This document shows positions 28,806 through 49,788 of a DNA stretch of 64,000 nucleotides, one piece after another. The position numbers were made by a program, and so were the translations under genes. A model generated the notes under the pieces. It made no database searches and was not told the origin of the DNA. It saw only the letters and a program-made list of their open reading frames with translations. How positions within the stretch are numbered: position 1 is the first letter of the stretch; the number at the start of each line of letters is the position of its first letter. Source of the stretch: Bacillota bacterium (lineage in GTDB: Bacteria; Bacillota; UBA5301; Bu52); assembly GCA_014896355.1 (NCBI GenBank), contig JADBKO010000006.1, positions 17,405-81,404 on the forward strand, given 5' to 3'.

Positions 28806-31800
28806 CTAAAAACCGGCCTGGATCATGGCCTCCGCCACATACGTCCTGTATGGCGCCTGCGGCGGCTTGCGGCCGAATACCACGCTGGTCGCGGCTGTGG
28901 CGCTCCAGACCGGGGAGAATTGGTGGGCAAGGCCGCCTCCCAGCTTCAGCTTCTGGCTGCTGTCCGGCCGGCCTCCGCTCATGCCTGCGGTCTGCGCCAA
29001 CTCTCCGTCCAGCTGCAGGGACCAGGACGGGCCCAGGGCAAAGGCCACCTGCGTCTGCAGGCCATAGGTGGAGACCGCCGTTTGATCGGCCGGATTCTCC
29101 TGGCGCTGCCAAGTCAGGAGGCCCGTGGTCTGCACGGCAGGGGACAAGAGCCAGGTCAAGCGCAGACCGGAATAGGCCTCGGAACTGCCCTGCACGCCGT
29201 ACTCCGGATGGGCCACCTGGCGCAGGTGGTAGCTCAGATCCAGCCCCGGCGTCAAGGCCGGCGTCAAGAGCACGCTCAGGTTGGCACTGAGGCGCCCCTC
29301 GGTCTCCAGCTTGGCATCGGCCGGCCAATGCGTGCGGGTCCAGGTCAGGGCCACGGACGGCAGGATGGTTTGGCTGCCGCCCTGCAGCGAGGCCTGGGCC
29401 CACCAGGTGCTGCGGGGATGACCGTTGGCCAGGTCCATCTCCAGCCAGCGGCCGTTCAGCGCCGGAGTCAGTCGTAGATTGCCGAGGCTCAGCCCGGGCG
29501 CAGCCAGCCCCAGGTTGGCTTCCTGGACGAGTTGGCGCCGGGAGGGCTGCGCAGGCGTCGCCCCCAGGAGCACGTTCGTCCGCTGCCGGTAAGACGCCTG
29601 GGTCCGCACCGGGCCGAGCCCCTTGCCGTTCTGGCCGCTGCCCGCGCTGTTCCAGGCCAGCCCCCAGTCCAAGGATTCATTGCCCTGCCAGGCAGCGTCC
29701 CATCCTACGTCCGCGGGCTGCGACTCGGCGGCCTGGGCCTGAACCCAACGGATCTGGAAAGGGCGGCGGTAATGGGCATCGGCCGTGAGGCCCGGGAGCA
29801 GAGCGGCGCTGATACGGGCATCCCAGGTCTGCCCCTGCCAGGTCCATGGGCCCTGCCAGCCCAGGCCCAGCTGGCCAGCGTCGTAGCCCAGGCTCCAGCG
29901 CAGCCGGTTCTCCCACCAGGAGGCGGACACGCTGGTTCCCACCGTGCTCCCCACCTCGTCGAAATCCGGGGAGCCGGTGCGGTCCAGCCGGTTGAGGGAG
30001 GCGCGGGCCCCCAGCCGGATGCCGGTGGCGCCCACCTGCCAGTCGGCGTTTACTCCGTCCGTGACGGTGCGCACGGGGCGCTCTTCCCAGGCCCCGCTCC
30101 AATCCCGCCTGCGCACGGCCTTATCGCCATGTTCCAGCGACACCTGCGCCTTCCCGTCCGCCAGTTCCAGCCGGCCGCCGGCAGACCACTGGCGCTGATC
30201 CAGGCGTTCCGTGCGGCCAATGGCCGTAAATCCGGGTTGCAGGGACTCGGCCTGCAGCCATAGGCCCAGTGGGCCCAACTTCTGTTCCAGATAAAGGCGC
30301 GCCGCCGCTCCCCGGGCGGTATGTGTGCCGGGGTCCAGATCTGCGTAAGCGCCGCTGTCTTCCAACGGCACACCGGTCTGGCTGCTGGCAAAGCGGACAA
30401 TACCCGCAGCGCCGCTGCCAGGGCCGGGGCCGGACCCGGACCCGGCGCCGTTTCCCGGCTCATAGAGCCAAAGCGGGAGATCCCCCTGGCCGTCCGGCCC
30501 GGGGCCCGCTTGGCTGCCGGCCCAAACCTGATCCGCCGGAACGTAGGGAAAGGCCGCCGTGGCCAGGGCAGTCATGGGTTGGTCACTGGGCACGCAAAGC
30601 CACCAGTCCCCGGGCCCTGCCGGCAGACCCGCCACAGTGGCATACAAGCCGGCCGTGGTGGCCGCATAGAGGCTTGTTCCGCCGCCGGAATCCAGCCAGG
30701 CCAAAGCCAGCACCGGGGCCGGCGGCGGGCTGAGGCGGCGCGTCTGGTATTCAGCCGGGCCGCCGGCGGCCGGCCGGATCTCCTCCACGCTCCACAGCTC
30801 GCCGCTGGCCAGCACCGTCGCCACGATCTCCCCGCTGCCGCCAGGCTCCGCTGGCACAGCCGGCGCCGCTCCCGGTCCCGGTACGGCCAGGGATTGCACC
30901 GCCCGCCCCGGCAGCAGGATGGACGCAGGCCCGGAACCCCCATCCTGCCAAACGGCCAAACCTTGGGGCGTTCCTGCCCATACCCGACCCCGCAGCGGAT
31001 CCGCAACCAAAACAGAAACCTCTTGGGAGGGCAAGCCTGCCTGCAACCGGTGCCAGGTGCCCAGGCTGGATTCTGCCGCCCATGCCAGACCCAGTGGCGT
31101 CCCGACCCAGATCCGGCCCGTGGCCGAATCTGCCGCCACGGCGGTCACTTGGCTGGAGGGCAGGCCGTCCGCGGCATAATAGCGATTCCAGTTGACGGCC
31201 TGGTCGAAAGGGCTGGCCCCGGGCAGGCTGGAGGCTTTGGCCACCCGGGTCAGCCCGCCGTTGGTGGCGATATACCACGCTGTCTCCGTCTGGGCCAGGG
31301 CCCGCACGTCGTTGCCGGCCAGGCCCGCAGCCAGGGTGTAAAGGCGCCACTGCCCGCCCCCGGCGCCGGCAGCCGCCTCCTGCTCCGCCGGCCCGGCGTA
31401 CACCGTCAGGCCGCTGCGGTGCCCGAACAGCACGTACGGCCGCCCGTCCGGCGCCGTCCCGGCACTCACCGCCTGCACGACGTTCGGCAGATGCTCCCGT
31501 TGGTTGTCGTCAAAGGGGAAGACGTTCTGGCTGAAGGCTGCATCCACCTGGGCTGAGAGGCCCCCGGCTTGCCAACGGCCGCTGGCGCCCACCACTGTGT
31601 GGGCCCCCGGCATGACCGGCACCTTGGCGGCTTCCGCCGGCGGCAAGGGCCGCTCCGCCGCGCGCACCACATCCAGCTGCAGGCGGTGCCCGGCGTCCGG
31701 GCTCCAGCCCAGGGAACACCCGAGCACGTCTTCCTGATAATATCCCGCCACCCCCAGGGCGCCGCGAAAGTATTCATAGTCGATGCGCAGAACGTCCTGG

Positions 31801-33452
31801 GGCCCTGCATCGCGCAGGAGTACCAGGATGCCGGCCTCATAATCCAGAGTATAGTCCGTGTCCCGCTTCAGAAGGACTCCGTTCAGATACACCCGTTCCG
31901 AACCGTGCGCCACCGCCACTCCCAGGGGATAGACGTTGTCCGTCACCCGATAGCGGTACTGCACCCGCACCCGGTCCGCCGCCGGATCCCACTGGCCTGG
32001 CGGCGGAAACTGGATCCGCATCATCCCGGCGTCGTAATAGATCTGCCAGGAAAAGCCGGCGATCTGCGCCGCAGGCCGCCACAGGCCCTGGATCTGCACT
32101 TCTACCTGCTCCGAGCCCGGCTCGATCCCTTGGTTGCCGAGGTCATAGAAGCCCCAGCCCTGGCGCAGCCGCGGGTCCGGCGGCGGCTGCGGCTGGAACA
32201 ACCCGGGGTCGCCGGGCGCCGGATACAGCACGCCGGCTTCGGGCCCGTCCCCTTCCGGCTGGCGGGCCACCCGCAGAAAGCTATAATCGGACAGCAGGGT
32301 GCCCAAAAATTGCGCTTCCAGCTGGGAGCCCTCCACGAACGGATAGGTCTTGGCCTCTGCCCCCCGCAGGCTATGCAAACGATTGTATTCATTGAGAATC
32401 GCCTGGATCAGCGTGCGCAAAACCGCCTCCGGCGGGCGCCGTAGAACGAGATAGCCTTGTCCCTGGTATTCCAGCGCCGCATAGGTGCCCGGGGAAATGC
32501 GGCGCAGGGTGCCTTCCACCAGTGTCCCTTCGGTCTCGCCGCTGCTGCCGGCGCCCAGAAAGCCCAAACCATACGCCTCCAAAAACTCCTGCAATGGCCG
32601 CGACGCCGTGGGCGTGCGTCCAAAGCGCACCCAGACCCGGTGAAAGTCCGAGTCGAAGCGCGGGGCGGCCAAAGCATACCAGAATGCCCCCCGGATGGAC
32701 GCGGTGAGGGAACCGTTCTCCCGGACCGGCGCGTAGGGCCCGTCCAATCCGGAATAGACCACCTGGTCGCTGCTGGCACCCCCGGTAAAGGTTTTGCTGG
32801 CCGGGATTCCCTGGCCTTGCGCCACAAACGCCCGGCCAAACCAGGGACCCTGGTGGGCCTGCAGCTCCACCCCCCGCAAGCTGGGGCTGTAGCCCAGGTA
32901 CGGGTTGGGGCTCTGCCAAAGAAAATCCCCGAAACGGGCTTGCCAGGGACCGTGGGCCAGAGTGAACGAAGCCAGCTGCAGATTGTCGGATTTGGCGTTA
33001 TCCACGTGGGCATCCAAGGCCAGGACGTCGCCTACATTGCCGCCGACGTCCACGGCGATGCGCTGCTTGAGGGTCAGCTGGCCGGGGACCAGGTCTTTCC
33101 GGCCTTCCAGGCCTGCCGGGTCCCCCCAGGCGTAGCCTCCCAGCCATTCCAGATGGCCGTTGAGCTGCCAGCCCGACGCCGCCCCGGCCGCCAGTGGGGG
33201 CTCGCCCGGCGCAGATTGCGCGTCCGCTGTCCCCCCCGGTGCGGACTGCGCGGGTGCCGCATCCGAAGCGGTCTGTCCCGTGGCAGCGTGGCCGCCCAGG
33301 TCTCCGGCAGGCTCCTGAGCAAGGGCCAGGGCGGAAAAACTGAGCCCCACCCCCGCCCCGAGCAGGATCCAGAAAAACGCTGCCATGGCTAGGGCGGCCC
33401 GGAACCCCCGCCCACCGTTCCGGATCTGCTGCCATGCCCGCCGCCGGCCCAT
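28806..33452 (-). CDS. SprA/Sov-like outer-membrane protein with inserted beta-propeller
   Basis: A 1548-residue exported protein. It has a signal peptide (AAFFWILLGAGVGLSFSALALA) and an Ala/Pro/Gly-rich stretch. Residues about 95-510 carry the order of motifs I associate with SprA-family channels (LTLKQRIAVDVGGNVGD, FGDFLWQSPNPYLGYS, RGVELQAHQGPWFGRAFVA, SKTFTGG). Next, near 515-550, comes GSERVYLNGVLLKRDTDYTL. Residues about 670-985 contain repeats of the two-component-regulator propeller type (DVRALAQTETAWYIATNGGL, RIWVGTPLGLAWA, RVWAGTPQGLAVW). From about 1040 to the end the chain is alternating amphipathic beta strands with many Trp/Tyr, finishing in the barrel-type terminus AEAMIQAGF. 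The ATG at 33452 is eight bases after GGAGG. SprA of Bacteroidota is longer (over 2000 residues). Outer-membrane location is well supported; the SprA link is an inference. Confidence 0.62.
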   Translation of the reverse strand: MGRRRAWQQIRNGGRGFRAALAMAAFFWILLGAGVGLSFSALALAQEPAGDLGGHAATGQTASDAAPAQSAPGGTADAQSAPGEPPLAAGAASGWQLNGHLEWLGGYAWGDPAGLEGRKDLVPGQLTLKQRIAVDVGGNVGDVLALDAHVDNAKSDNLQLASFTLAHGPWQARFGDFLWQSPNPYLGYSPSLRGVELQAHQGPWFGRAFVAQGQGIPASKTFTGGASSDQVVYSGLDGPYAPVRENGSLTASIRGAFWYALAAPRFDSDFHRVWVRFGRTPTASRPLQEFLEAYGLGFLGAGSSGETEGTLVEGTLRRISPGTYAALEYQGQGYLVLRRPPEAVLRTLIQAILNEYNRLHSLRGAEAKTYPFVEGSQLEAQFLGTLLSDYSFLRVARQPEGDGPEAGVLYPAPGDPGLFQPQPPPDPRLRQGWGFYDLGNQGIEPGSEQVEVQIQGLWRPAAQIAGFSWQIYYDAGMMRIQFPPPGQWDPAADRVRVQYRYRVTDNVYPLGVAVAHGSERVYLNGVLLKRDTDYTLDYEAGILVLLRDAGPQDVLRIDYEYFRGALGVAGYYQEDVLGCSLGWSPDAGHRLQLDVVRAAERPLPPAEAAKVPVMPGAHTVVGASGRWQAGGLSAQVDAAFSQNVFPFDDNQREHLPNVVQAVSAGTAPDGRPYVLFGHRSGLTVYAGPAEQEAAAGAGGGQWRLYTLAAGLAGNDVRALAQTETAWYIATNGGLTRVAKASSLPGASPFDQAVNWNRYYAADGLPSSQVTAVAADSATGRIWVGTPLGLAWAAESSLGTWHRLQAGLPSQEVSVLVADPLRGRVWAGTPQGLAVWQDGGSGPASILLPGRAVQSLAVPGPGAAPAVPAEPGGSGEIVATVLASGELWSVEEIRPAAGGPAEYQTRRLSPPPAPVLALAWLDSGGGTSLYAATTAGLYATVAGLPAGPGDWWLCVPSDQPMTALATAAFPYVPADQVWAGSQAGPGPDGQGDLPLWLYEPGNGAGSGSGPGPGSGAAGIVRFASSQTGVPLEDSGAYADLDPGTHTARGAAARLYLEQKLGPLGLWLQAESLQPGFTAIGRTERLDQRQWSAGGRLELADGKAQVSLEHGDKAVRRRDWSGAWEERPVRTVTDGVNADWQVGATGIRLGARASLNRLDRTGSPDFDEVGSTVGTSVSASWWENRLRWSLGYDAGQLGLGWQGPWTWQGQTWDARISAALLPGLTADAHYRRPFQIRWVQAQAAESQPADVGWDAAWQGNESLDWGLAWNSAGSGQNGKGLGPVRTQASYRQRTNVLLGATPAQPSRRQLVQEANLGLAAPGLSLGNLRLTPALNGRWLEMDLANGHPRSTWWAQASLQGGSQTILPSVALTWTRTHWPADAKLETEGRLSANLSVLLTPALTPGLDLSYHLRQVAHPEYGVQGSSEAYSGLRLTWLLSPAVQTTGLLTWQRQENPADQTAVSTYGLQTQVAFALGPSWSLQLDGELAQTAGMSGGRPDSSQKLKLGGGLAHQFSPVWSATAATSVVFGRKPPQAPYRTYVAEAMIQAGF

Positions 33453-33489
33453 GGAGTCCACCTCCTACCGCTGCCACTGTCCCGCCGGC

Positions 33490-33543
33490 GCAGGCCGGGC
33501 GAGGCGCCCTTTTCCCGTGTACGCCAGCGTCTCGCCGGCCTGC
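33490..33543 (-). other. stem-loop between PorV-like and SprA-like genes
   Basis: Arms GCAGGCCGGGCGAG (33490-33503) and CTCGCCGGCCTGC (33531-33543) pair over 13 bases with one bulge. There is no U-tract. It could slow transcription into, or protect RNA ahead of, the SprA-like gene. Confidence 0.5.
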
Positions 33544-33559
33544 ATCCCAGCCTGGGGGC

Positions 33560-34477
33560 TCAGAACCGCAGTACCGCGCCCAACCGATGGGCGGCCTTGC
33601 TGACAGGATGGGCCTCAAAGGCATAATCCACCTGGATCGCCTGCCAGCGCAGGCCGAGGCCCAGGGTCAGGGCCCAGCCCGAACCGGGGTTCCAAGCTCC
33701 ACAACGCAGCTCTGCGGGCCCGAAATCATAAGCAGCGCCAGTATGAACCACGGTGCCCACGGACGGCTGCGACTCCACATCTGCGGCCAGCAGCAGGTTC
33801 CCCATCTGGTAGCCGGCGCCCAGCACCCAGGTGCGCTCGAACGGATCCAGCACACCGCTGGGCTCGTACCGGACACCGCCCAACGCATTGCGGGCCACAA
33901 GGCCCAGGCGCAGATTCTCCAGCTCATAAGCGGCGCCCACATCGGCGGTGAAACCGTGGCCTCTCGTATTTGGCAGCGTTTGGCTGAAATACTTCCCCGT
34001 GACGCCCACGGCGAAGCTGGGGGAGAAGGCCCAGCCCGCGCCGGCCAGGGAAGCCAGCTCTTCCACCCGGTACGACGGACCCGGATTGCCGAATTCGTCG
34101 GCTCCCTCGCCGCCGGCGGCCATGCGCAGGATCCCCACCCCCAGGTTGGGCCGGGCATAAGCCAGGTTCAGATAACCGAGAGCGCCCCAATTGGACGCAT
34201 AGCTGGAAACCACGCTGTTGCCGTATAGCAGGGCCAACAGGGCCGGATTGTAATAGACCGCGCTGGCGTCCGTGGCGATGGCCGCGGCAGCGCCGCCCAT
34301 CCCCATGGCCCGGGCGCCCAGGCCCTGGTTGAGCAGGGCCGCGGTGTGGCTGTAGTCCTGGGCTGGCGTTTCTTCCGCCTGCACGGGCAGCAGGGCGCCC
34401 ACAGCCAGCAGAATGCCGAGGGCCAGGACCACGCATCCGGCTACGGCCGGTAACGAGCGGCAAACCCTCTTTATCAT
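33560..34477 (-). CDS. PorV/PorQ-like outer-membrane beta-barrel protein
   Basis: A 305-residue exported protein. It has a signal peptide (VVLALGILLAVGALLPVQA) followed by the PorV/PorQ-type N-terminal signature (LLNQGLGARAMGMGGAAAAI, DASAVYYNPALLALL). Alternating strands of a 14-stranded-type barrel run to the C-terminal LGAVLRF, which ends in Phe like outer-membrane barrels recognised by BamA. In Bacteroidota PorV plugs or binds the SprA channel and carries cargo to the attachment complex. The ATG at 34477 follows GGAGGGAGG. It lies between the giant protease and the SprA-like barrel, on the same strand. The family relationship is strong by motif; the function in this organism is inferred. 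Confidence 0.78.
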   Translation of the reverse strand: MIKRVCRSLPAVAGCVVLALGILLAVGALLPVQAEETPAQDYSHTAALLNQGLGARAMGMGGAAAAIATDASAVYYNPALLALLYGNSVVSSYASNWGALGYLNLAYARPNLGVGILRMAAGGEGADEFGNPGPSYRVEELASLAGAGWAFSPSFAVGVTGKYFSQTLPNTRGHGFTADVGAAYELENLRLGLVARNALGGVRYEPSGVLDPFERTWVLGAGYQMGNLLLAADVESQPSVGTVVHTGAAYDFGPAELRCGAWNPGSGWALTLGLGLRWQAIQVDYAFEAHPVSKAAHRLGAVLRF

Positions 34478-34543
34478 CGGAGCCTCCCTCCAAACGCGCC
34501 TGCCGGGGCAGGCAAGATGGCACTGGGCCGGTCTTTCGGCAAA

Positions 34544-34583
34544 CGGCGGGGACCAGGGCCAGGATGCGCCCGGTCCCCGTCGG
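34544..34583 (-). other. strong stem-loop ahead of the PorV-like gene
   Basis: Arms CGGCGGGGACCAGGG (34544-34558) and CCCGGTCCCCGTCGG (34569-34583) pair almost perfectly around a ten-base loop, about 65 bases ahead of the PorV-like start. It is a candidate RNA processing or attenuation site. Confidence 0.5.
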
Positions 34584-34610
34584 AAACCAACTTTCCATTT
34601 CGACGCAGGC

Positions 34611-34653
34611 GGGGCGGCTTCTGCAAACGTTTGCTGGCCTGCGAAACCGCCCC
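34611..34653 (-). terminator. stem-loop directly after the giant protease stop codon
   Basis: Arms GGGGCGGCTTC (34611-34621) and GAAACCGCCCC (34643-34653) flank the perfect palindrome GCAAACGTTTGC (34623-34634), about ten bases past the stop. The position is that of a terminator but there is no U-tract, so partial read-through into the PorV-like gene is likely. Confidence 0.4.
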
Positions 34654-34663
34654 AACCCTGGGG

Positions 34664-37600
34664 TTAGCGCTCGACCACCAGCTTCAGCACCGGCGACGAC
34701 CGCCCGCTGTTGGTGACCAGGACGTAGAGGTACAGCCCCGGAGCCAGCGGCGTGCCGTGGCTGTCCGTCAGATCCCAGAGGTAGTGGGTCTCGCCCTCCG
34801 CCACCTCGTGCCGGTAGGCCAGGCGTCCGGCGCTGTCGTAGACGTAGAGCGTGCCGCTCACACCTTGGGCGAAGTAGAAGGTCACGGTGCGATCGGCCGG
34901 GTTCGGGCCGGCAGCCACCAGGCCGGAGAGCTTCACGATGGTGAAGACCGGGCTGACGGCGCTGGCCTTGGCTCCCTGCGTATCCGTGACCGTCACCTGC
35001 ACTTGGTAGAGCCCGCCCTTGGGCACCACGGCTGTATCCCAGAGGTAGGTGCCATCGTTGGCCTCGCCGGCTGCGATCTCCGTCCAATGGGTGCCATCGG
35101 CGGAGAAGGCCAGGCGGATCTGGAGGCTTTCCGCCGGATCATCGGGATCCGTGGCCGTCCACCGGATGGCCTCCTTGCCGGTCCAGACCGCACCGGCAGC
35201 CGGGGCGGTGATGCTCACCTGCGGCGGCAGATTCACGACCTCCACCTTCTGGCGGGCAGGCTCGACGCTGGGGGCGCCGGTGCTGTCCCAGACGGTGAGC
35301 GCCACCCAGTGGCTGCCTTTGGTGGTGTAGCGGTGCTGCGGGTTCTGCTCCGTACTGGTGGTGCCATCGCCGAAGTCCCAATGCCACGCCACAACCTCGC
35401 TGTCGCCCGGCTGCGACGCATCCCGGAATTGCACCGTATCCTGGATGGTCGGTTGAGCCGGGGTGAAGCTGAAGCCCGCCGTGGGCGCCACATGCGACAC
35501 CCCGGCTGCGAGGATGGCGCCGCGAAGCTGGTTCAGGCTGGGCGACGTGTCTGGGCCGATCTCCATGCGGATGAAGCCACCGTACAGGCCGCCCTCGCTG
35601 GAGTCCCGGTAAGGTACAGCGGACTGCTGGCTGACCGGCGCCCACTGCCCGGTGGCAGCGTCGAACCAGTAGAGAGCCAACCCTTGCGGATCCATCCCCT
35701 GCGGCCAGTACCAGTTGAGAACGATCCTTCCGATGCCGCTGACGCCGTCCGGGCCGGCCACAGCCTCCGTCGGTTGCAGAGCGAAGTAGGCATTGCGGCT
35801 GTTGAACAGGGCGGCGTGCGATGCCACCGGGTTGCCGCCGAAGCAGGTCAAAACGATCTCCGGCAGGTTCCCGTCGCCCGGGACCTCCGTGGGCTGCTGG
35901 GCCCGCTCATACCACAGGCGCAGGTCTTTCAGCGGATAGCCGTCAGTGACTGGCTCCATGATGAAGAGCGTACCCGTCACCGGTGCCGCCGGGCTGCCCA
36001 CCACCAGGGTCTGCCAGGCCGTGCTGCTGCGGGCGCCCAGGTTATCCGTGACCCACAGCTGCACCGTGTAAATGCCACCCTGGGCGTAACGGTGCTGCGG
36101 GTTTTGGTCCAGGCTGGCGGCCCCGTCGCCGAAGTCCCAGTGCCAGGCGGCTACGCTGCCGTCCGGGTCGTGGGAACCATCGCTGAATCGCACGGGTTCT
36201 TCTGTACCCCGGCTCTCCAGGCCCGGGTGGTTGTAGGTGAAGGCCGCCACCGGCGCCTGGGTCACCGTGAATTGCGGGCTCACGACCACCGTGGAACCGC
36301 GGTCCTTGTCGGTGACGGTGATGCGCACCTGCACCCGATCACTGGGCCCTACGCCCGCGAGATTCCAGGTGTAGCTGCCGCTATTGGGCAGGTTTTGTTT
36401 GATGCGGCTCCAGGTCTCGCCGCCATCCTTGCTGTATTCCAGGGCGACGGCGAGTTCAGTGCCGTCCTCAGGATCGCTGGCGTTCCACCGGATCTCCAGG
36501 CTGGGTGTGGTCACGATCTCTCCGCCCGCGGGTACAGTCAGTTCCACCTGCGGCGAACGATGGAGGGTGAAGTTGCCGCTCTGGGCTGTGGCGTGTTGCC
36601 CGTACGGATCCTTGACCGTCACCTGCACCTGGTAGAGATCGCCTACGGGCAGGCCGTTGGTATCCCAGTCATAGCGGCCGCTGTTCTCGGCATCCTGCAC
36701 CAGCACCGTCCAGGTCTGGCCGCCGTCGCCGGAATAGGCGAGATCCACGGTCAGCGCCTGGTCATCGCGGGCCGTCCACTGGATGGGTGTCACGCCCTCG
36801 ACCACCGAGCCGGCAGCGGGTTTCTGGATGCTCACCCGGGGGATGCCATTGATGGTCAGGTCCACCGGTACCACCGCCACCGGGCGATAGGGATCATCCG
36901 CCATGACTCGGATGCCCGTGTGGTACACGCCCGGCGCCGCCGTGGGCGAGCCGAACGTCACGACGACATCCTGGCTCTTGCCCGGCAGCACCTGCCCGGA
37001 ATCGGGATTCACACCCACCAGGCTGCCGATGGGCGTGAAGCCCACGGCCAAGCCGTCTTTCACGTACTGCGCGTTGTAGACCACTTCCAGGCCCACGCTG
37101 CCACGGGCGTTCTCGATGCCCACCGTGGCGCTAGTGAGGTCTCCGCGCATGGACTGGTACTGGTAGAGAATGGTCCCGTCCGGCTTGAGAATGATCTGGA
37201 ACGTATAGCCCACCTGGGCACCCCACTGCGGCACGTCTTTGAATTCCACGATGAAGCGCCGGTGAGCCTCATCGTAGTAGTAGTAGACATGGCCCGCAGC
37301 GCCGGGATCCAGATCGTCCCAAAACGCCGCCAGGATGTCATTGGGCTCGGCACTGTTGGGGATCGGCGCGTTCTCGAAAAAGCCCCGGATGCTCTTGCCG
37401 AAGGTCAGGTAGCCGTTGGAGCAGATGGCCACCTGGCTCTTGCTCTCCCCATAGAATGGGAAGGGGAACGGCAGAGGCACCGTGACTCCGGACTCGTCGT
37501 CCAGCGTCACCGGGGTCCCGATTTCGCTGATCTCCAGCCAGTCGTACGCCGGGCCGCCCTCTTGGTCACTGTCCATCCAGACGTAGCCGTAGGCGTCCGG

Positions 37601-40600
37601 GCCGCCGGCGCCATAGGTCACCGGCCAGCCGTGCAGCTCCTTGGCGAAGTCGCCTTTCCGGTAGGAGCGCTCTGCTGCAAAGCGCTGGTACTCCGCCGTC
37701 TCGCCGAAGCTGGGCGCCAGGGCCAGATGGAAGTTGAGAGGCGCCTTGCCGTCGTTGCGGATGGTCAGCGGGCGCTGATCCTGCTGCCCTTCGGTGAGGA
37801 ACACGTCGAAGGCATCCGGCGTGACGCCCAGGACCGGCAGCCAACGGACTTCCACCTGTACCTTCTGGGACACTTCCACGCCGTTGGCATCCTTGGCGTG
37901 GATGCTGGCTTCGTACGTTCCCAGGTTCGGGTAGACGTGGCTCGCTGTAGGTTGATGCACGGCAGCACTGCCGTCGCCAAAATCCCACCACACGTCGACC
38001 ACAGGCGCAGCACCGGCCTGCACCGTGGCGCTGAAGCGCACCTCGAGGGGCGGCTCGCCCACGGCCGGTTCGGCCTTCACATCGCTCAGCACCGGCGCAG
38101 GCAGGATGTGCACGTTGACGTCCACACCCAGCAGGGGCCGGAACGGATCATTGGTGGTGATCTCCAGGTAGTTGGTGTAGTCCTTGCCGGGCTGGCCCAG
38201 TTCACTGGCTTTCACCGTGACGGCGAGATCCTGGGTCTGCCCCGCCGGGATCGTTCCCGAGCTGGGCTCCACCTGAATCCCGCGGGAGATGGGCATATCC
38301 GTGTCCACCAGGTAGGCGCGGTTGTTCATGGCGACGACCCACAGATTGCCGTCCTCGTTCAGCTCCAGGCCGGCACCCTGGTACTCGCCGCCGGACGGGG
38401 CCTGGAACTGGTACACCACAGCCCCGTGCTCCAGATCCAACCCGAAGATCATGTCCGGCGAGCCGTTATTGGACACCCAGAGGATGCCCCCCGGATGCCA
38501 GGCCAGGCCGGCGATGCCCACCGGGAAGGACCAGGCTTCGATGACTTCGCCCGGATGGCTGTGGCTGAGACCCCGGATGTGGTAGATGATGTCCTGGTTC
38601 CAGCCGCCGATGTAGAAGGTGTCGGTGGCTGCGTCATAGGCCAGGCCGCGCTGGGAGATCCCGGTCCAGGGGCCGGAGGTGATCTTCTGCCGGACCTCGC
38701 CGGTGGCGGGGTCCAGGCCGTAGATGCCGTTGTCGCCGCCGACATTGACCTGCCAGATCAGATTGTGGTTCGGATCGTAGGCCATGTCACCCGGCCAGGA
38801 TCCGGCCCACGGCGTCGCGAAGGTCTTGCCGGTGTAGACGCCCTGCGGCGTCACCAGCGAGTCCTTCTTGACCTGTGGGTCGCTGATCCAGACATTCGTC
38901 TGATCGAAGCCGGCGCCCCAGGCCAGGGTGATCGGCGACGGCACCGGCCAGGACAAGAGCACCTGGCCCACTCCGTCGGGCCGTACGTTGCCCTGCAGGC
39001 GGTGCACCTGCTCCGGTGTGAGCGGCTGGAAGAGCCCGCGGGCCGTAAGGGCGTCAGGGTCGGCGATCTTGCCGCCAGCGATGCGCTGCGGCAGCACGAT
39101 GGCCGGCGAGGCGCCGGGCCGCACCCGCACCTTGAACTGCAGCGGAGCCTTGCCCTGGGCATTGCCCACGGTCACCGTATGGACCTGGAAGCCATTGCCC
39201 GGCAGGGTGAACTCCAGCTGCGTGGGATCCACCGTGGCCCGCGGCAGATTGCGCACGTCGACGAGAATCTGCGTGCTGGCTGTGCCGCCCAGCTGGTCCA
39301 CTGCGGTGAAGGTGGCCAGGAACTGGCCCTCTGCCGTGTAGACGTGGGAGGCATCCAGCGTGGGCTCGCTGCCCACGACCGGGGCGCTGCCGTCGCCGAA
39401 GTCCCACTTCACGCTGGCCAGCGGGGTTTCTGGCGCCTGCACCACCGCATGGAACTGTACCGTCAGAGGCGGCTCGCCGAGGGTCGGAGTGGCCGTGGCC
39501 TCCTGGATCACCGGTGCGGCCGCCACATGCAACTGCACCGGGACCACAATTTGCGGGTTCTCTGGGTCATTGGTGGCCAAAGAGACCGCGCCACTATGGT
39601 CGCCGGGCCGCAGATTGCGGGCATCCACCGTCACCGTCAGCTGCTGAGAAGCCCCCGCAGTCACGGTGCCGCTGGCTGGAGCGACCTGCAGCCACCGGCC
39701 GATGGGGCCTAGGTTGGTAGCCACCAGGTACATGGTGTTGTTGCCCTGGGAAGCGACCCACAGATTCCCATTGGCGTCGAACTCCAAGCCCGCGCCGTTG
39801 TAGTCGCCGCCCGCCGGATGGGCAAACTGCGCCACAATGGCGTGGCTCTCGGCATTGACGAAGTAGAGGGCATCCGGCGCCGCATTACTGGCCACCACCA
39901 GGATCTTCGCCCCCGGATGGTAGGCCAGTCCGGAGATGCTCACCGGCATGGACCACTGTTCCAGAACCTCGCCGGGATGATCCCAGCTCAGGCCCTTGAA
40001 GTGGTAAATGATGTCCTCGTTCCAGCCGCCGATGTAGAAGGTGTCGTCATCGGGGTTGTAAGCCAGGCCCCGCTGCGAGACTCCTGTCCACGGGCCGCTG
40101 GTGATGGAGGCCACCACCGCGCCGGTTTGCGGGTTCAGCTGGTAGATGCCGTTGTCGCCGCCGACATTGACCTGCCAGATGAACTGGCCGTCAAAGGCCA
40201 TGTCCCCTGGCCACGATCCGGCCCACGGGGTGCTCCAGGAGGTGCCGGTATAGGCGCCGGCCGGAGTCACCAGGGCGTCCATCTTCTGCTGGGGGTCCGA
40301 GATGGCCAGATTGCCGCTGTTGCGGTCCACGGCCACGCCCCAGGCCAAGGTGATGGGCGAGGGCGCGGTCCAGTGGGCCAGAATCTGTCCAGCGTCCAAC
40401 GGTTGGATGGCCCGGCGCTCCTGGTCCGCCAGCGGGGCGTAGAGGCCGCGGGCCGTGCGCGCCAGCGGGTCCACACCGCCAGCGCCGGCATTCGCCGCAC
40501 CCACCGTGCCGCCAGCTCCTGCCGTACCCGGCCGGCCCACGGGCCCGGCCAGCCGTTTGGGCAGCTGAATGCTCTGGGACGCCGCCTCGGCGCCGAAGCG

Positions 40601-43600
40601 AAGAGCCCCCGGCCCAGCGTTGCTCAGGGTCAGCGAAGCACTCCCCGTCCGTCCCTGGGCGACGCGCAGGAAGATCTGATGCGGATCCCAGCTGGCTGCC
40701 GGCGGCTGGCCCACCTCCACCTGCACCCGGGCGGTGGCCTCATACCCGTCGTTGTCCACGGCATGGAACGTGGCGGTATAAGGACCCTCGTGCCCATAGG
40801 TGTGGGTGGTGGTGAACTCGTGCACCGGCTGGCTGCCGTCGCCGAAGTCCCAGTACTGGTCGGCGATGCGGCCATCCGGATCCTGGGCCGCAGCCACGAA
40901 CTGGAACTGCGTCTCCACCGGGCCCCGGGCCGGATTGACCCCGGCGGCCGTGATGACCGGCGGCTGGTTCGGCAGCACATCCACGTGCACAGGCGCTGCA
41001 ATTTCCGGATGCAGCAGATCATTGCTGTCCAGAACCAGGCGGCCGTCCAGGCTGCCGCTGGCGATGGGCCGCAGGTCGAAGAGCACCTGCACATCCTGGC
41101 TTGCTCCCGGCGCCACGCTGCCCTGGCTGACATTGGTCGACAGCCAGGCGAAGGGGTAGAAGAGCACCGCCAGGCCATTGTGCACGTAGGGGGCGTTGAA
41201 GACCACCTCCAGGCCATCGCTGCCGTCGGCGTTCTCGATACCCACCGTGGCACTGTTGGCTTTGCCGCCGAAATTCAGCGGCGCTTCGGGCGGCCCGTAC
41301 TGGTAGAGAATGCGGCCGTCCGGGTAAAGGATGGCTTCAAAGGTCAGAGCTCCGGTATTGGGATAAAGAGGCACCTGGTACCATTCCACGACGAAGCGTT
41401 CATGGGCCGCATCGTGGTAGGTATAGACGCTGCCAGCCCGGTTGGGACTCAGGTCGTCCCAATAGACGGCCAACAGGTTGTTGGGGGTATTGTCGTCCGG
41501 AATGGGGTCGTTGCTGTAATCCCCCGTCGTGCTCCCGAAGGTCAGATACCCGTTGGAGCACACGCTCAGCGACGTATACGTCCCACCGTAGAACGGGAAC
41601 GGCCACGGCAGATCCACGGACACGCCGCTGTCATCGCCCAGGTTCACCCGGTTGCCGGTGGTGGTGATATCCACCCACTCGAAGGTGGGTCCGCCCGGCT
41701 GGTCGCTGTCCAGCCAGATCATGCCGAAGCGGTCTGGCCCACCCCTCCCCAGCCGGCCTGGGCGCGGATCGGGCTGATCCTTCGCGCCGTTCCAGTCCGG
41801 CGCATCCGGGGCCACCCTGGGCACCACCTGCGCCGGAGTGCCGGCGGTCTCCGCCCGGAGCGTGAATTCCAGGGGCACATCGCCGCTGTTGCGGATGGTC
41901 AGAGTCTCCGTACGCGTGCGGTGGGCCCGGATCGCAGCCGTAAACGAGGGCGGCGTCAGCGATGCCGAGGGCTGTGGCCGCGCCACGATGTGGATCGTGC
42001 GGGTGGCCCGCAGGCCCTCGTCGTCGATTACCGTCAACGTGGCGTCATACTCGCCCTCCGTTTCGTAGGTGTGGCTGGTGCGCAGCTGGCCATCGGAAGG
42101 CGCGCCGCCGTCCACCGGGGCGCTGCCGTCCCCGAAGTTCCACTGCGAGGCCACCACCCGGCCGTCCGTGTCCCCGACCTCGGCCGCGAACTGCACCGTC
42201 AGCGGCGTCTTGCCGGCGAAGGGCTGCGCCGTGAAGCTGCGGATCACCGGCGGGATGAGGGCATTCACATGCAGGAAGGCCTCCACGTTGATGGCCGGGG
42301 TATCCGGGTCATCGCTCTGAACCACCAGCGTGGCCGGATAATCCCCTTCCGGCCGTTGGCCGGCCTTGAAGGTGACTGCCACATCGGCACTGGCCCCCGG
42401 GGCCACCGTACCCTGGCTCGGCTCCACCGCCAGCCAGAACGGGTAAAACTCCACCGCCAGATTGTCATGCAGATAGGCCTGGTTGAAGGCCACCTGCAGG
42501 CCATCGTTGCCGGCGGCATTTTCGATACCCACTGTGGCTTGGTTCAGGGTTCCCCGCATGGTGAGATACTGGAATTTCACCGTACCGTCCTTCCGCAGGA
42601 TGACCTCGAAGGTGTTGGGCGTGCTGCTGCCCCAGCGCGGCACGTTCTTGTATTCCACCACGAAGATTCCGGCAGCGGCGTCCCCGTAGTAGAGGATCCG
42701 GCTGCCGCTTCCCGGGTTCAGATCGTCCCAGAAGGGCGCGATCAGGTCATTGGGCTGGCTCGGGTTGGGGATCGGGTCGTTGCTGTAATCGTCCCCGTTG
42801 GTCCCGAAGGTGAGATAGCCGTTGGAGCCGATACGCACCTGGGTTTTCTGCTGCCCGTAGAACGGGAAGGCAAAGGGCAGGTCCACCAACGCGCTGGCGT
42901 CATCCCCCAGGTTCACGGGAGTCCCGGTGGAGGTCAGATCCAGCCATTCAAACGCGGGCCCGGTCGGTGCGTCGCTGTCCGCCCATTGGTAGCCGGAGTG
43001 GTCCGGGCCACCGGCGCCCTCCGCCACCGGCGGGCCTTGACGCGGATCCACCTGCCCCTTGGCCACCTGCAGATCGGGGATAGCGGGAGCAGCACCCGCC
43101 GGAGCGCTGCCCGGGATGGCCAGCCCGCAGCTGTAGTGCAAATCCCCCTGGCCGCTGTTGGTGATGGTCAGGTGCTGGGTCTCTTCCTGACCCCAGTCCA
43201 GGGAAGCCTGCAGAGACGTGGGGTTCACGCCGATATGCGGCGGGAAGAACACGTGGATCCGGACCGTGGCCACAGATTCCAGGCCAGCGTTGTCCACGGC
43301 GTGGAACTTGGCCTCGAACCATCCCTGCGCCGTGTAGGTGTGCTGCGCGTTCGCGGCATGGAGCGGCGCGCTGCCATCGCCGAAATCCCACCACATATCG
43401 GCGATGGAGCCGTCCACGTCGTGGGCCGCGGCCTCAAAGGTCACGGCCAAGGGCGGTTCGCCCTGGGTCGGCGTGGCCGTGGCCCGCTCGATGACCGGCG
43501 GCAGCGAGGCCGCCAGGGCGTTGGCGGCATTCAGGCGCCCGCCCGTGACGCACTTCCCCGCCAGGGCCGGTTTGCGATCTACCGTATCCAGAATCAGGCT

Positions 43601-45106
43601 TTTCACCGACGGGCTGCCCTCGGTCCACCCCGGGGCTCCGGGATAGAGAGGCAGAGTGGGGTACTGGCTCATGACCAGGGCTGCCACGCCCGAAACATGG
43701 GGCGTGGCCATGGACGTGCCGTAGAAGAAGGCGTAGGCTTCTTCCGGCGGCTGGCCGGGCCCCGGCGGCGGATCCGGCGGCACGGTGGAAAGAATGTAGC
43801 CGCCGGGAGCGAACAGATCCACCGAAGTGGCGCCATAGCAGGTGCTCCACCAACCCGGATAGCTCGCGGGCTCGTCGTTTTGCATGGTGGCCGCCACGGC
43901 AATGATGTTTGGTGAATCGTAGCTGGAGGGATAATGCGGCGTGGCGTCATTGTTGGTGCCGCTGTTGCCAGCGGCAGCCACGAAGAGCATGCCCGTGCCT
44001 TCAATGGCGTCCTTCAGGGCTTGGCTGTAAGCGCCGCCGCCCCAGCTGTTGTTGGTGAGCTTGGCGCCGGCCTGGGCCGCATACTGCAGGGCCAGGATGG
44101 CGTCCGAGGTGAAGCCGCCTTCCGGCCCGAGGAACTTGAGGATGATGATCTTGATGTCCCAGCTGATGCCGGCCACGCCCATGGCGTTATCGCTCAGGGC
44201 GCCGATGGTGCCGGCCGTGTGGGTCCCGTGTTCATCCGCGAGATAACCGTATTGGTCCCGCTGATCCGGGTCCCACACGGTGTTGTCGCCGTCGTAGAAA
44301 TCCCAGCCGTGGATGTCGTCGACGTAGCCGTTGCCGTCATCGTCGATGCCGTTGTCCGGGATCTCCCCCGGGTTGGTCCAGATGTGGGCCGCCAGGTCCG
44401 GGTGATCGACGTAGGCCCCCGTATCGATGAGGCCCACGATCACCTCCGGCGAGTCGGTGCGGATGGACCAGCCCTCCGGCATGTCGATATCCGCGTCGGC
44501 CACGGCCGGGGCGCTGAGCTCCGGGTCATCGGCCTGAGGCGGCATCTGGCTGGCGCCGGGGTTATGCAGCCCCCACATCAGGTTGAAATACGGATCACTG
44601 GGAAAAACGGGAGCGCCGTCCCGATATACTTTATAATCGGGTTCGGCATAAAGGATCTCCGGCCGCCGGGACAACTCCGCCGCTTCTCTGCGGACGTCTG
44701 TCCCCTTGGGCACCTTCACGATGTGGATGTCCAGACCCCGCGGGAAACGCTTGCTGGGCCCGAAATGAGCAGTCTTTTCCAGCTGCAGCCCCAGGGCCTG
44801 GAAACGTTCTGCTGCGGCTTGTACCGTATTGACGGAACTGCTGTCCTTGAACCGCACGAGAATGCGCTCCGGGTTGACCTCTACGGGCCCCGCCTGCCAC
44901 CCGCCGTGGAATTTGCCAGGCGGCGGCGCCGCTGCCGCGTTGCCAGCCATCCAGACCAACCCACCCACGACCAGGAAGACCACGAGGGCTGCCAACAACA
45001 CGGCCGCCCGCCGAGCTGGTCCTGCACAGCCAGCGCCGTCTGCGGGCCACCGCGCTGCCGTCGCACCCCGTGCGGGCCGTTCCGCCCTCCCATGGTACCT
45101 TCTCAT
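34664..45106 (-). CDS. giant secreted S8 subtilisin-like peptidase with PKD arrays and C-terminal sorting-like domain
   Basis: A 3480-residue surface or secreted protein. The ATG at 45106 is eight bases after GGGAGGG. Order: signal helix (AVLLAALVVFLVVGGLVWMA); I9-like propeptide (ERILVRFKDSSS); S8 catalytic domain with Asp in GLIDTGAYVDH (about 228), His in DEHGTHTAGT (about 293) and Ser in YGTSMATPHVSG (about 463). Then follow alternating PKD domains (WWDFGDGSAP) and two large repeated modules, each closed by an ASH-like strand domain (SQGTVAPGASADVAVTF). Next come Ig-like domains (GDGGQTWTVL), more PKD domains and a final Ig-like domain. The last 88 residues (AAGPNPADRTVTFYF, LYVYDSAGRLAYRHEV, LAPGLYLYVL) resemble FlgD-Ig or type IX C-terminal sorting domains. 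All catalytic residues are present. Confidence 0.87.
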   Translation of the reverse strand: MRRYHGRAERPARGATAARWPADGAGCAGPARRAAVLLAALVVFLVVGGLVWMAGNAAAAPPPGKFHGGWQAGPVEVNPERILVRFKDSSSVNTVQAAAERFQALGLQLEKTAHFGPSKRFPRGLDIHIVKVPKGTDVRREAAELSRRPEILYAEPDYKVYRDGAPVFPSDPYFNLMWGLHNPGASQMPPQADDPELSAPAVADADIDMPEGWSIRTDSPEVIVGLIDTGAYVDHPDLAAHIWTNPGEIPDNGIDDDGNGYVDDIHGWDFYDGDNTVWDPDQRDQYGYLADEHGTHTAGTIGALSDNAMGVAGISWDIKIIILKFLGPEGGFTSDAILALQYAAQAGAKLTNNSWGGGAYSQALKDAIEGTGMLFVAAAGNSGTNNDATPHYPSSYDSPNIIAVAATMQNDEPASYPGWWSTCYGATSVDLFAPGGYILSTVPPDPPPGPGQPPEEAYAFFYGTSMATPHVSGVAALVMSQYPTLPLYPGAPGWTEGSPSVKSLILDTVDRKPALAGKCVTGGRLNAANALAASLPPVIERATATPTQGEPPLAVTFEAAAHDVDGSIADMWWDFGDGSAPLHAANAQHTYTAQGWFEAKFHAVDNAGLESVATVRIHVFFPPHIGVNPTSLQASLDWGQEETQHLTITNSGQGDLHYSCGLAIPGSAPAGAAPAIPDLQVAKGQVDPRQGPPVAEGAGGPDHSGYQWADSDAPTGPAFEWLDLTSTGTPVNLGDDASALVDLPFAFPFYGQQKTQVRIGSNGYLTFGTNGDDYSNDPIPNPSQPNDLIAPFWDDLNPGSGSRILYYGDAAAGIFVVEYKNVPRWGSSTPNTFEVILRKDGTVKFQYLTMRGTLNQATVGIENAAGNDGLQVAFNQAYLHDNLAVEFYPFWLAVEPSQGTVAPGASADVAVTFKAGQRPEGDYPATLVVQSDDPDTPAINVEAFLHVNALIPPVIRSFTAQPFAGKTPLTVQFAAEVGDTDGRVVASQWNFGDGSAPVDGGAPSDGQLRTSHTYETEGEYDATLTVIDDEGLRATRTIHIVARPQPSASLTPPSFTAAIRAHRTRTETLTIRNSGDVPLEFTLRAETAGTPAQVVPRVAPDAPDWNGAKDQPDPRPGRLGRGGPDRFGMIWLDSDQPGGPTFEWVDITTTGNRVNLGDDSGVSVDLPWPFPFYGGTYTSLSVCSNGYLTFGSTTGDYSNDPIPDDNTPNNLLAVYWDDLSPNRAGSVYTYHDAAHERFVVEWYQVPLYPNTGALTFEAILYPDGRILYQYGPPEAPLNFGGKANSATVGIENADGSDGLEVVFNAPYVHNGLAVLFYPFAWLSTNVSQGSVAPGASQDVQVLFDLRPIASGSLDGRLVLDSNDLLHPEIAAPVHVDVLPNQPPVITAAGVNPARGPVETQFQFVAAAQDPDGRIADQYWDFGDGSQPVHEFTTTHTYGHEGPYTATFHAVDNDGYEATARVQVEVGQPPAASWDPHQIFLRVAQGRTGSASLTLSNAGPGALRFGAEAASQSIQLPKRLAGPVGRPGTAGAGGTVGAANAGAGGVDPLARTARGLYAPLADQERRAIQPLDAGQILAHWTAPSPITLAWGVAVDRNSGNLAISDPQQKMDALVTPAGAYTGTSWSTPWAGSWPGDMAFDGQFIWQVNVGGDNGIYQLNPQTGAVVASITSGPWTGVSQRGLAYNPDDDTFYIGGWNEDIIYHFKGLSWDHPGEVLEQWSMPVSISGLAYHPGAKILVVASNAAPDALYFVNAESHAIVAQFAHPAGGDYNGAGLEFDANGNLWVASQGNNTMYLVATNLGPIGRWLQVAPASGTVTAGASQQLTVTVDARNLRPGDHSGAVSLATNDPENPQIVVPVQLHVAAAPVIQEATATPTLGEPPLTVQFHAVVQAPETPLASVKWDFGDGSAPVVGSEPTLDASHVYTAEGQFLATFTAVDQLGGTASTQILVDVRNLPRATVDPTQLEFTLPGNGFQVHTVTVGNAQGKAPLQFKVRVRPGASPAIVLPQRIAGGKIADPDALTARGLFQPLTPEQVHRLQGNVRPDGVGQVLLSWPVPSPITLAWGAGFDQTNVWISDPQVKKDSLVTPQGVYTGKTFATPWAGSWPGDMAYDPNHNLIWQVNVGGDNGIYGLDPATGEVRQKITSGPWTGISQRGLAYDAATDTFYIGGWNQDIIYHIRGLSHSHPGEVIEAWSFPVGIAGLAWHPGGILWVSNNGSPDMIFGLDLEHGAVVYQFQAPSGGEYQGAGLELNEDGNLWVVAMNNRAYLVDTDMPISRGIQVEPSSGTIPAGQTQDLAVTVKASELGQPGKDYTNYLEITTNDPFRPLLGVDVNVHILPAPVLSDVKAEPAVGEPPLEVRFSATVQAGAAPVVDVWWDFGDGSAAVHQPTASHVYPNLGTYEASIHAKDANGVEVSQKVQVEVRWLPVLGVTPDAFDVFLTEGQQDQRPLTIRNDGKAPLNFHLALAPSFGETAEYQRFAAERSYRKGDFAKELHGWPVTYGAGGPDAYGYVWMDSDQEGGPAYDWLEISEIGTPVTLDDESGVTVPLPFPFPFYGESKSQVAICSNGYLTFGKSIRGFFENAPIPNSAEPNDILAAFWDDLDPGAAGHVYYYYDEAHRRFIVEFKDVPQWGAQVGYTFQIILKPDGTILYQYQSMRGDLTSATVGIENARGSVGLEVVYNAQYVKDGLAVGFTPIGSLVGVNPDSGQVLPGKSQDVVVTFGSPTAAPGVYHTGIRVMADDPYRPVAVVPVDLTINGIPRVSIQKPAAGSVVEGVTPIQWTARDDQALTVDLAYSGDGGQTWTVLVQDAENSGRYDWDTNGLPVGDLYQVQVTVKDPYGQHATAQSGNFTLHRSPQVELTVPAGGEIVTTPSLEIRWNASDPEDGTELAVALEYSKDGGETWSRIKQNLPNSGSYTWNLAGVGPSDRVQVRITVTDKDRGSTVVVSPQFTVTQAPVAAFTYNHPGLESRGTEEPVRFSDGSHDPDGSVAAWHWDFGDGAASLDQNPQHRYAQGGIYTVQLWVTDNLGARSSTAWQTLVVGSPAAPVTGTLFIMEPVTDGYPLKDLRLWYERAQQPTEVPGDGNLPEIVLTCFGGNPVASHAALFNSRNAYFALQPTEAVAGPDGVSGIGRIVLNWYWPQGMDPQGLALYWFDAATGQWAPVSQQSAVPYRDSSEGGLYGGFIRMEIGPDTSPSLNQLRGAILAAGVSHVAPTAGFSFTPAQPTIQDTVQFRDASQPGDSEVVAWHWDFGDGTTSTEQNPQHRYTTKGSHWVALTVWDSTGAPSVEPARQKVEVVNLPPQVSITAPAAGAVWTGKEAIRWTATDPDDPAESLQIRLAFSADGTHWTEIAAGEANDGTYLWDTAVVPKGGLYQVQVTVTDTQGAKASAVSPVFTIVKLSGLVAAGPNPADRTVTFYFAQGVSGTLYVYDSAGRLAYRHEVAEGETHYLWDLTDSHGTPLAPGLYLYVLVTNSGRSSPVLKLVVER
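37020..42950 (-). repeat. three dispersed copies of a NIDO-like module within the S8 protein
   Basis: A module of about 180 residues occurs at about 42420-42950, 41130-41690 and 37020-37560. Shared landmarks are PFPFYG, SNGYLTFG, DPIP or APIP, FWDDL or YWDDL, ATVGIENA and LAVxFxPF. Each is followed by an ASH-like domain and preceded by a PKD domain or linker. The copies differ substantially, so the duplication is old. Confidence 0.7.
38280..40390 (-). repeat. two tandem copies of a propeller-like module within the S8 protein
   Basis: Copies at about 39710-40390 and 38280-38960 are nearly collinear: PSPITLAWG, TPWAGSWPGDMA, IWQVNVGGDNGIY, SQRGLAY, DTFYIGGWN, IIYHxxGLS and GAGLE. They read as a six-bladed or similar propeller with an ASH-like cap. 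They look more alike than the NIDO-like copies, implying a later duplication of PKD plus propeller plus cap. Confidence 0.7.
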
Positions 45107-48970: not shown

Positions 48971-49040
48971 GCCCGAGATGATGAGAGAGGGGTGCGGGCC
49001 TCATCGATAGGATCTTGTCCACCGTCGACATTGGCGTAGT
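48670..49040 (-). other. scrambled segment inside secA (many small indels)
   Basis: Fragments of the expected SecA sequence appear here in shifting frames: IDEARTPL, then [29 protein letters not shown], and nucleotides coding [10 protein letters not shown]. They are separated by single-base gains, losses and substitutions. The DEVD Walker B (expected VDEVDS) is reduced to VDGGQDP. Sequence on both sides is clean. secA is essential and no second copy is visible in the window, so a local consensus error is the likeliest cause. Confidence 0.75.
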
Positions 49041-49641
49041 AGAGCTCCCGCTGCACCATCTGCGAGACGTCCCCAATGTTGTCCCGCAGATAGTCGAAGC
49101 CGAATTCATTGTTGGTGCCGTAGGTGATATCCGCCGCATAGGCAGCCCGGCGCTGGGCGTAATCCATGTCATGCAGGATCACTCCCACCTTCAGGCCCAG
49201 AAAGCGGTAGATTTGCCCCATCCACTCGCTGTCCCGTTTGGCCAGATAATCGTTGACGGTGACCACGTGCACCCCGTGGCCGGCCAAAGCGTTCAGGTAA
49301 GCCGGCGCCGTGGCAGCCAGGGTTTTGCCCTCGCCGGTTTTCATCTCGGCAATCTTGCCCTCGTGCAGAACGATGCCCCCGATGAGCTGCACGTCGAAAT
49401 GCCGCTGCCCCAAGGTGCGAACAGCCGCCTCACGCACCACCGCAAAGGCTTCGGGCAGCAGATCATCCAGGGTTTCGCCGGCCTCCAGGCGGCGCCGGAA
49501 TTCCGGGGTTTTGGCCGCCAGTTCAGCGTCGGAAAGGGCCTGCATCTGCGGCTCCAGGGCGTTGATCTGCGCCACGATGTCGCTGCAGCGCTTGATCTCC
49601 CGCTCGTTGCTATCAAAAACCTTTTTGATAAAGTCCAGCAT
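48961..49641 (-). CDS. secA: SecA, N-terminal part (separated by frameshifts)
   Basis: N-terminal part of SecA from the ATG at 49641 ([18 protein letters not shown]), with AGAGGTG ahead. It contains the Q-motif region [20 protein letters not shown], Walker [26 protein letters not shown], and the switch region [15 protein letters not shown]. It then degrades at [18 protein letters not shown], where the frame is lost. The longer open frame to 49770 upstream is not conserved. A terminator about 60 bases upstream separates it from the preceding gene, so secA should have its own promoter, although I could not identify clear boxes. Confidence 0.9.
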
Positions 49642-49701
49642 CGTCACACACCTCTGCCCGAAGTGTCCATACCCCGCCGTAACCGCAAAAGCCCAAACTG
49701 C

Positions 49702-49749
49702 AAAAAAGGCTCCGCCTGTGGCTGATCCTGCTGCCGACCGGCCGAGCCT
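49702..49749 (-). terminator. rho-independent terminator upstream of secA
   Basis: Arms AGGCTC and GAGCCT (with inner GCC/GGC pairing) are followed on the minus strand by six T residues at 49702-49707. It ends the transcript of the nucleotidyltransferase-like gene. Confidence 0.6.
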
Positions 49750-49788
49750 CCACCTTTGGTTCCAACTCACGGGTTCGGGTTCGTGCTC

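Follow-up and report, generated by a model that had tools for sequence, protein, structure and literature searches.

Does a working relative of the type IX secretion system (T9SS) exist outside the Bacteroidota, and if so, which of its parts does it keep? Several abstracts describe the T9SS as confined or specific to Bacteroidetes, and SprA has been called specific to the Fibrobacteres-Chlorobi-Bacteroidetes (FCB) group (PMC12611786). The question is raised by a 64-kb stretch of a Bacillota genome (64,000 nucleotides of contig JADBKO010000006.1, assembly GCA_014896355.1; hereafter the window), in which three minus-strand open reading frames (ORFs) encode, in order of transcription, a giant protease, a PorV-like protein and a SprA-like barrel protein. 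A preliminary description of the window had read this trio as a self-contained, type-IX-like unit outside Bacteroidota. The positions and the common strand that it gave were found again, and the type-IX-like reading is supported by profile matches, by the predicted fold, by the sorting tail of the protease and by a second set of genes that includes a protein with a C-terminal sorting domain (CTD); that the trio is self-contained we infer. The type IX translocon has a compact relative here that comes with a carrier and a cargo of its own, and this relative is real and widespread. It is previously unreported within the open-licence PubMed Central literature (subscription papers and preprints lie outside it), in the accessible text of which we found no report of SprA or the T9SS in Bacillota or Bipolaricaulota.

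The channel protein is a distant relative of SprA

The ATG at 33452, with AGGAGG just upstream, was preferred over a GTG at 33461 as the start of the barrel gene and gives a protein of 1548 aa. Against the SprA model TIGR04189 this protein scored 21.8 bits (cutoff 200; E = 2.2e-5) over residues 499–552, which hold a conserved motif (scan pattern [RE][DGN]xDYxIDYE). A Pfam scan returned Reg_prop alone, and that marginally. When a five-sequence profile (A1) was searched against the PDB, SprA was matched with E = 1.8e-6 and the alignment was collinear, query residues 54–165 corresponding weakly to SprA 149–265 and residues 436–554 to SprA 692–807. A 17-sequence SprA-like profile matched SprA in the PDB with E = 7.8e-7. 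The family also matched a 2337-aa protein of PF14349, which we take to be SprA_N (4.1e-4 by profile, 8e-10 by pairwise BLASTP). Judged by sequence, the barrel protein is a distant homologue of SprA and not a TIGR04189 equivalog.

The fold was approached through a model of a 1035-aa relative (L021; pLDDT 80.3, pTM 0.61). The top four Foldseek matches of this model were all SprA chains (1.8e-15 to 3.7e-11, with TM-scores of 0.33–0.55 by query length), followed by human ApoB (1.6e-8) and the next outer-membrane protein (6.9e-8). Residues 27–1035 of the model aligned end to end with SprA 132–2401 over 868 residues. The possibility had been raised that the barrel is too small to pass protein; the barrel predicted for L021, the relative and not the window protein itself, is giant, with approximately 36–38 strands counted on the DSSP line, as against 36 in SprA (PMC10994853). 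Together, the profile and fold matches support the SprA-like assignment. The family is like SprA/Sov (6H3I, 6H3J, 8GL6, 8GL8) in its collinear sequence stretches and end-to-end fold match. It is unlike SprA (2403 aa) in its shorter proteins (about 1000–1700 aa), in the below-cutoff TIGR04189 score of the window protein, in its hosts (Bacillota and Bipolaricaulota) and in carrying an additional domain.

This domain, a Reg_prop propeller of approximately 360 residues, goes beyond the preliminary description of the barrel protein and is present in 16 of 17 aligned SprA-like proteins. To judge from the L021 model, by the parity of its strands and the lengths of its loops, the propeller would sit in an extracellular loop of the barrel. 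Within the SprA-like profile, the propeller region has a weak match to PorZ (E = 0.03), and sensor-kinase propellers match far better. The sequence would allow the propeller to be a fused PorZ-like module, a link that we treat as a lead only. The solved structure in question, 5M11 (PG93), is presumably PorZ, a propeller protein; its CTD is also the second-best solved match of the cargo tails described below. Unlike PorZ, the propeller here is fused into the channel protein.

The carrier and the cargo tail are of type IX kind

The PorV-like protein of the window scored 79.8 bits against PorV_fam (E = 2.7e-22), just missing the curated cutoff of 90, and fell far under the cutoff of the PorV equivalog; a Pfam scan gave no match. 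A profile built from 13 loci (A4) had PorV of the T9SS (6H3I chain F) as its sole significant match in the PDB (8.9e-15; next, 0.074). PorV also provided the best two fold matches of the modeled window protein (pLDDT 84.8; 8.9e-12 and 1.2e-10). FadL-family channels followed near behind in the fold search (2.2e-10 and up), so it is sequence and not fold that sets the protein apart from FadL. The claim of a PorV-like partner was therefore borne out by profile, where A4 retrieved PorV only, as well as by fold.

The start of the protease, at 45106, is preceded by GAGGGAGG, and a hydrophobic, signal-like stretch, judged by eye, lies approximately 30 residues past it. Its tail matched Por_Secre_tail TIGR04183 with 27.2 bits, over the cutoff of 23, across residues 3401–3470 of 3480. 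The last 95 residues of 20 cargos were then compared as a set: 18 matched TIGR04183 and 18 matched FlgD_ig, whereas Pfam Por_Secre_tail was matched by 12, the NCBI type B model by one, and CHU_C of Pfam was touched by nine. The tails are thus like the type A domain of the T9SS, and unlike a pure type A in the accompanying FlgD_ig matches and in the RLVIxR-like strand with which most of them finish. The preliminary description had allowed that the tail might be a generic FlgD-like fold. Among solved structures, T9SS CTDs scored above FlgD (PorU tail, 1.4e-8; PorZ, 3.2e-4; RemZ-type CTD, 6.6e-4; FlgD, 4.1e-3). The catalytic domains of ten cargos adjoining SprA-like genes were S8 in eight and M6 in two; the window cargo is likewise an S8 protease.

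The source genome, a 2.6-Mb draft of 128 contigs with 94.7% completeness, was searched for other CTD proteins, as had been suggested, and one was found beside PorV-like and SprA-like genes. This second set, on a 4520-bp contig (C105), comprises a metalloprotease of the M6 family that carries a sorting tail, a gene for a PorV-like protein that exceeds the PorV_fam cutoff and a partial SprA-like gene, of which the first 214 residues are present before the contig ends. A third, lone PorV-like gene lies on contig C48 (L017:9378-10745), with no CTD match near it in a 19-kb stretch. It adjoins a tsaD-like gene, and groEL-groES-like genes (all named by eye) lie some kilobases away.

The trio recurs across two phyla

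Relatives were collected by scanning GTDB species genomes with an alignment and one peptide pattern, and the best 80 of 116 loci were kept. The trio was counted in the 62 of these (L070–L131) that match over long stretches, under a strict rule: cargo, PorV and SprA-like gene in that order and on the same strand, close together. Forty-four loci followed the rule, seven were cut by a contig end within 1.5 kb, and 11 did neither. Five of the last group (L103, L119, L121, L126 and L127) have all three genes and failed since mechanically called ORF starts overlap. PorV precedes the cargo in L071, cargo and PorV come after the channel in L081 and are convergent in L112, and neither cargo nor PorV was found in the stretch examined of L073, L076 and L123. 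No PorV was seen directly beside the channel gene in genomes G041, G339, G176, G205, G309 and G372. With this gene order repeated at dozens of loci, the trio is far from chance.

The 62 loci come from Bacillota/Firmicutes metagenome-assembled genomes (MAGs), with one Limnochordaceae genome among them, and mostly from Bipolaricaulota/Acetothermia, together with a Fraserbacteria genome, an "uncultured bacterium" and one record each under the labels Atribacteria, Thermotogae and Neomarinimicrobiota. In a midpoint-rooted tree, 24 Bacillota-side rows (the window included) separated from 51 rows of Bipolaricaulota and others with a branch support of 99. SprA-like genes without the trio, on a very long branch, were found at L020:9863-13894 and L030:1489-5526; both adjoin V-type ATPase-like genes (named by eye). 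A further group (L132–L149, mostly 1000–2100 aa) has a short SprA-type stretch alone in common and occurs in Elusimicrobia, Hydrogenedentes, WOR-3, Latescibacterota, Riflebacteria and others, with PorV-like or CTD matches also at L132, L135, L141, L142 and L145. At four loci of the main group (L121, L126, L127 and L075), the channel gene is followed downstream by another PorV-CTD pair, encoded on the opposite strand.

Carriers and cargos are paired in SprA-positive genomes

Co-occurrence was measured in 398 genomes of the phylum. The Bacillota placement of the window held up here, genomes of this sample being identical or nearly so, over the stretch compared, to Bacillota, Firmicutes or Limnochordaceae genomes. 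The SprA-like profile matched 29 genomes; after exclusion of four that matched in the propeller alone, 25 remained, of which G001 and G152 are weak. PorV was found in 69 of the 398: in 24 of the 25 SprA-positive genomes, the exception (G296) being 77% complete, and in 45 of the 373 others. At E = 1e-50 or better, PorV was restricted to 20 genomes, 19 of which are SprA-positive.

The neighbors of PorV genes were then scored. For SprA-positive genomes the sample consisted of 20 regions with high-scoring extra PorVs plus five from G191 (two), G041, G018 and G152, three of these five containing the SprA-like gene itself; the count did not extend to the extra-PorV regions of G272 or to one such region of G248 (C30). 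A CTD protein adjoined a PorV in 25 of 25 such regions, as against three of 15 regions in SprA-negative genomes (G200 strong, G078 and G037 weak). The CTD matches in L197–L199 are weak (2e-9 to 3e-17), and L174 has an additional, weaker PorV match without an adjoining CTD gene. Trio members contributed to the building of both profile A4 and the CTD profile, and the co-occurrence and pairing counts accordingly favor that subfamily. With the exception of G200, the 15 SprA-negative regions carry lower-scoring PorVs, and the contrast is therefore partly one between PorV subfamilies.

PorV-CTD pairs outnumber SprA genes in several genomes, which suggests that one channel probably serves several pairs. 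In this the carriers are unlike PorV: many SprA-positive genomes have several paralogues, usually adjoining a cargo gene, and most cargo genes found adjoin a PorV of their own. In Flavobacterium, all type A cargo shares PorV, whereas genes of type B cargo often lie paired with those of the PorP/SprF shuttles (PMC12618676). The arrangement described here is like that of the PorP/SprF shuttles, in which the carrier gene lies beside the cargo gene and one SprA channel is common to all (PMC12618676), and unlike it in that the carriers are PorV-like and the tails type-A-like (18/20), rarely type B (1/20).

Motor, sortase and envelope

Sixteen SprA-bearing genomes were searched for the remaining parts of a T9SS. 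GldL was over its cutoff in none (two weak matches, the best 18.2 bits vs 68.3), and the five control genomes that matched were all below cutoff. GldM gave no match in any of the 16 even at E = 0.1, with Thermotoga alone matching among the controls, below cutoff. GldN gave no match at E = 0.1 in the 16 genomes, nor in any control genome. The C25 domain of PorU was over cutoff in none of the 16 (one weak match, in G117), again with no match in any control. Because no control genome passed these cutoffs, the absence of GldL, GldM, GldN and C25 is not proven. MotA/ExbB-type proteins occur in 12 of the 16 genomes, all 12 on the Bacillota side and each with at least one protein, mostly two, over cutoff. 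The four Bipolaricaulota/Fraserbacteria genomes, which are MAGs whose completeness is not given, had no such match.

Omp85 was over cutoff in 17 of 17 genomes (the 16 SprA-bearing ones and G002; the genome of the window is included), most weakly in G402. This marker gene, as distinct from microscopy, makes it likely that the window organism has an outer membrane. Diderm walls have been reported for cultured Limnochordia (PMC11456536), in a paper whose accessible text has no mention of "type IX"; the envelope type of Acetothermia has been left open (PMC6092417). PorV/FadL-like genes were noted in three SprA-positive Bacillota genomes, either next to an Omp85 gene or within approximately 5 kb of it (Table 1). 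Since the β-barrel assembly machinery (BAM) of Bacteroidota includes a FadL-family subunit, BamG (PMC12611786), these genes could by analogy encode BamG-like partners.

Features and genomic setting

The intergenic distances are 186 bp between protease and PorV genes and 107 bp between the PorV gene and the ATG of the barrel gene. Upstream of the trio lie prfB, secA and hpf; downstream are a GntR-type regulator and sugar genes and, farther on, an M23 peptidase, an S41 peptidase, uvrB and uvrA. The hpf-secA-prfB and uvrB-uvrA gene orders are typical of Bacillota. The GC content of the window is 66%, and by codon-position GC the trio genes resemble their neighbors. The setting is an ordinary chromosomal one. 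SecA is split over two overlapping minus-strand ORFs in different frames (48961–49770 and 46967–48970, together window positions 46967–49770); the frame is shifted either in the assembly or in the genome itself.

Table 1. Coordinates of the trio, its domains and PorV/FadL-like genes near Omp85 (window positions unless a genome and contig are named)
Feature	Position	Strand	Basis
SprA-like giant outer-membrane barrel gene, 1548 aa	28806..33452	-	profile and family fold match; ATG with AGGAGG upstream
Barrel stretch matching SprA/Sov directly, residues 499-552	31806..31967	-	profile
Reg_prop-type propeller insert of barrel protein, residues ~653-1010	30432..31505	-	profile
PorV-like carrier barrel, 305 aa	33560..34477	-	profile and fold
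Giant cargo protease, 3480 aa	34664..45106	-	signal-like N terminus, S8, seven PKD stretches, other Ig-like domains, sorting tail
S8 subtilase catalytic domain, residues 221-509	43580..44446	-	domain search
Type IX type-A-like C-terminal sorting domain, residues 3401-3480	34664..34906	-	profile
Region of a PorV/FadL-like gene near Omp85	G082:C81:11872-14238; G117:C3:44378-46842; G054:C10:14982-21559		

Discussion

We regard it as probable that the trio represents a compact SprA translocon with dedicated PorV carriers, found outside the FCB group, that would export or display proteases. We infer that it works like the translocon of the T9SS; it is the motor that decides whether it also counts as a full T9SS. 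The protease would cross the inner membrane by Sec, after which its CTD could enter the SprA-like pore from the periplasm and dock on the loops of a PorV lodged in the lateral opening of this barrel. Carrier and cargo would then exit together, sideways into the outer membrane, where PorV may remain as a dedicated surface anchor or release the protease. In Flavobacterium, the energy-requiring step has been deduced to be the freeing of carrier and cargo from the channel (PMC10994853). Our guess is that one-to-one consumption of carriers, together with folding of the cargo outside the cell, might stand in for the proton-driven GldL/GldM motor. A wider proposal, which we put forward tentatively and which may well prove wrong, is that an ancient core exporter, independent of the motor and common to diderm Bacillota and Bipolaricaulota, is made up of SprA channel, PorV carrier and sorting tail, with a single channel serving many dedicated pairs of PorV and cargo. 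Bacteroidota would have acquired the type IX motor and sortase later, and SprA would be no invention of the FCB group.

The same channel, carrier and cargo could instead belong to a complete but strongly diverged type IX system, whose GldKLMN motor, hub and sortase are encoded elsewhere and lie past the reach of curated models. This differs from the motor-independent exporter on the motor. The channel is itself barely visible by sequence, so the other parts could be equally diverged; the curated cutoffs passed over the control genomes too; and one of the MotA/ExbB-type proton channels present on the Bacillota side could have been recruited. The poor score of the best GldL match and the empty GldM and GldN searches weigh against a hidden motor, as do the four MAGs without any MotA/ExbB-type protein, and we consider such a system unlikely, if worth keeping in mind.

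A display unit is a less probable reading still. Here the PorV-like protein would hold the CTD protease at the surface after export by another route, such as BAM, and the SprA-like protein would be a scaffold or receptor with its propeller outside. In its favor are the excess of PorV-CTD pairs over SprA genes in several genomes, the near-universal propeller, and three genomes that have pairs without a SprA-like match. However, the draft of G200, the one strong case among the three, is 84% complete, so a channel may have been missed. The end-to-end fold match to SprA, a carrier that is PorV-like by sequence and not a generic FadL, and the recurrence of the trio across two phyla also argue for the translocon.

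That the three genes are unrelated neighbors without a joint job (a generic barrel, a FadL-like porin and a protease whose end resembles FlgD-Ig) is very improbable. For the window proteins alone, two of three T9SS-family matches lie under curated cutoffs, FlgD_ig matches most tails and barrels look alike in fold searches; against this stand the conserved gene order, the second set in the source genome, the strong co-occurrence and a PorV-CTD pairing found mostly in SprA-positive genomes. Components of the T9SS are able to move between Bacteroidota (PMC7323717), but an origin of the trio from a Bacteroidota genome, by recent transfer or through contamination during binning, is scarcely credible given ordinary chromosomal flanks with matching codon-position GC, the lack of a Bacteroidota label on any of the best 80 of 116 loci, the deep split of the tree and the single-contig genomes (G191, G309 and G372) that carry the SprA-like gene.

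A compact SprA-PorV-cargo unit would give diderm Bacillota and Bipolaricaulota a dedicated protein exporter and would explain how giant proteases come to be placed outside the cell. It would also support a working outer membrane in these lineages. Such a unit would be a natural reduced system for asking what the motor of the T9SS does, and since cultured Limnochordia exist (PMC11456536), the question is open to bench work.
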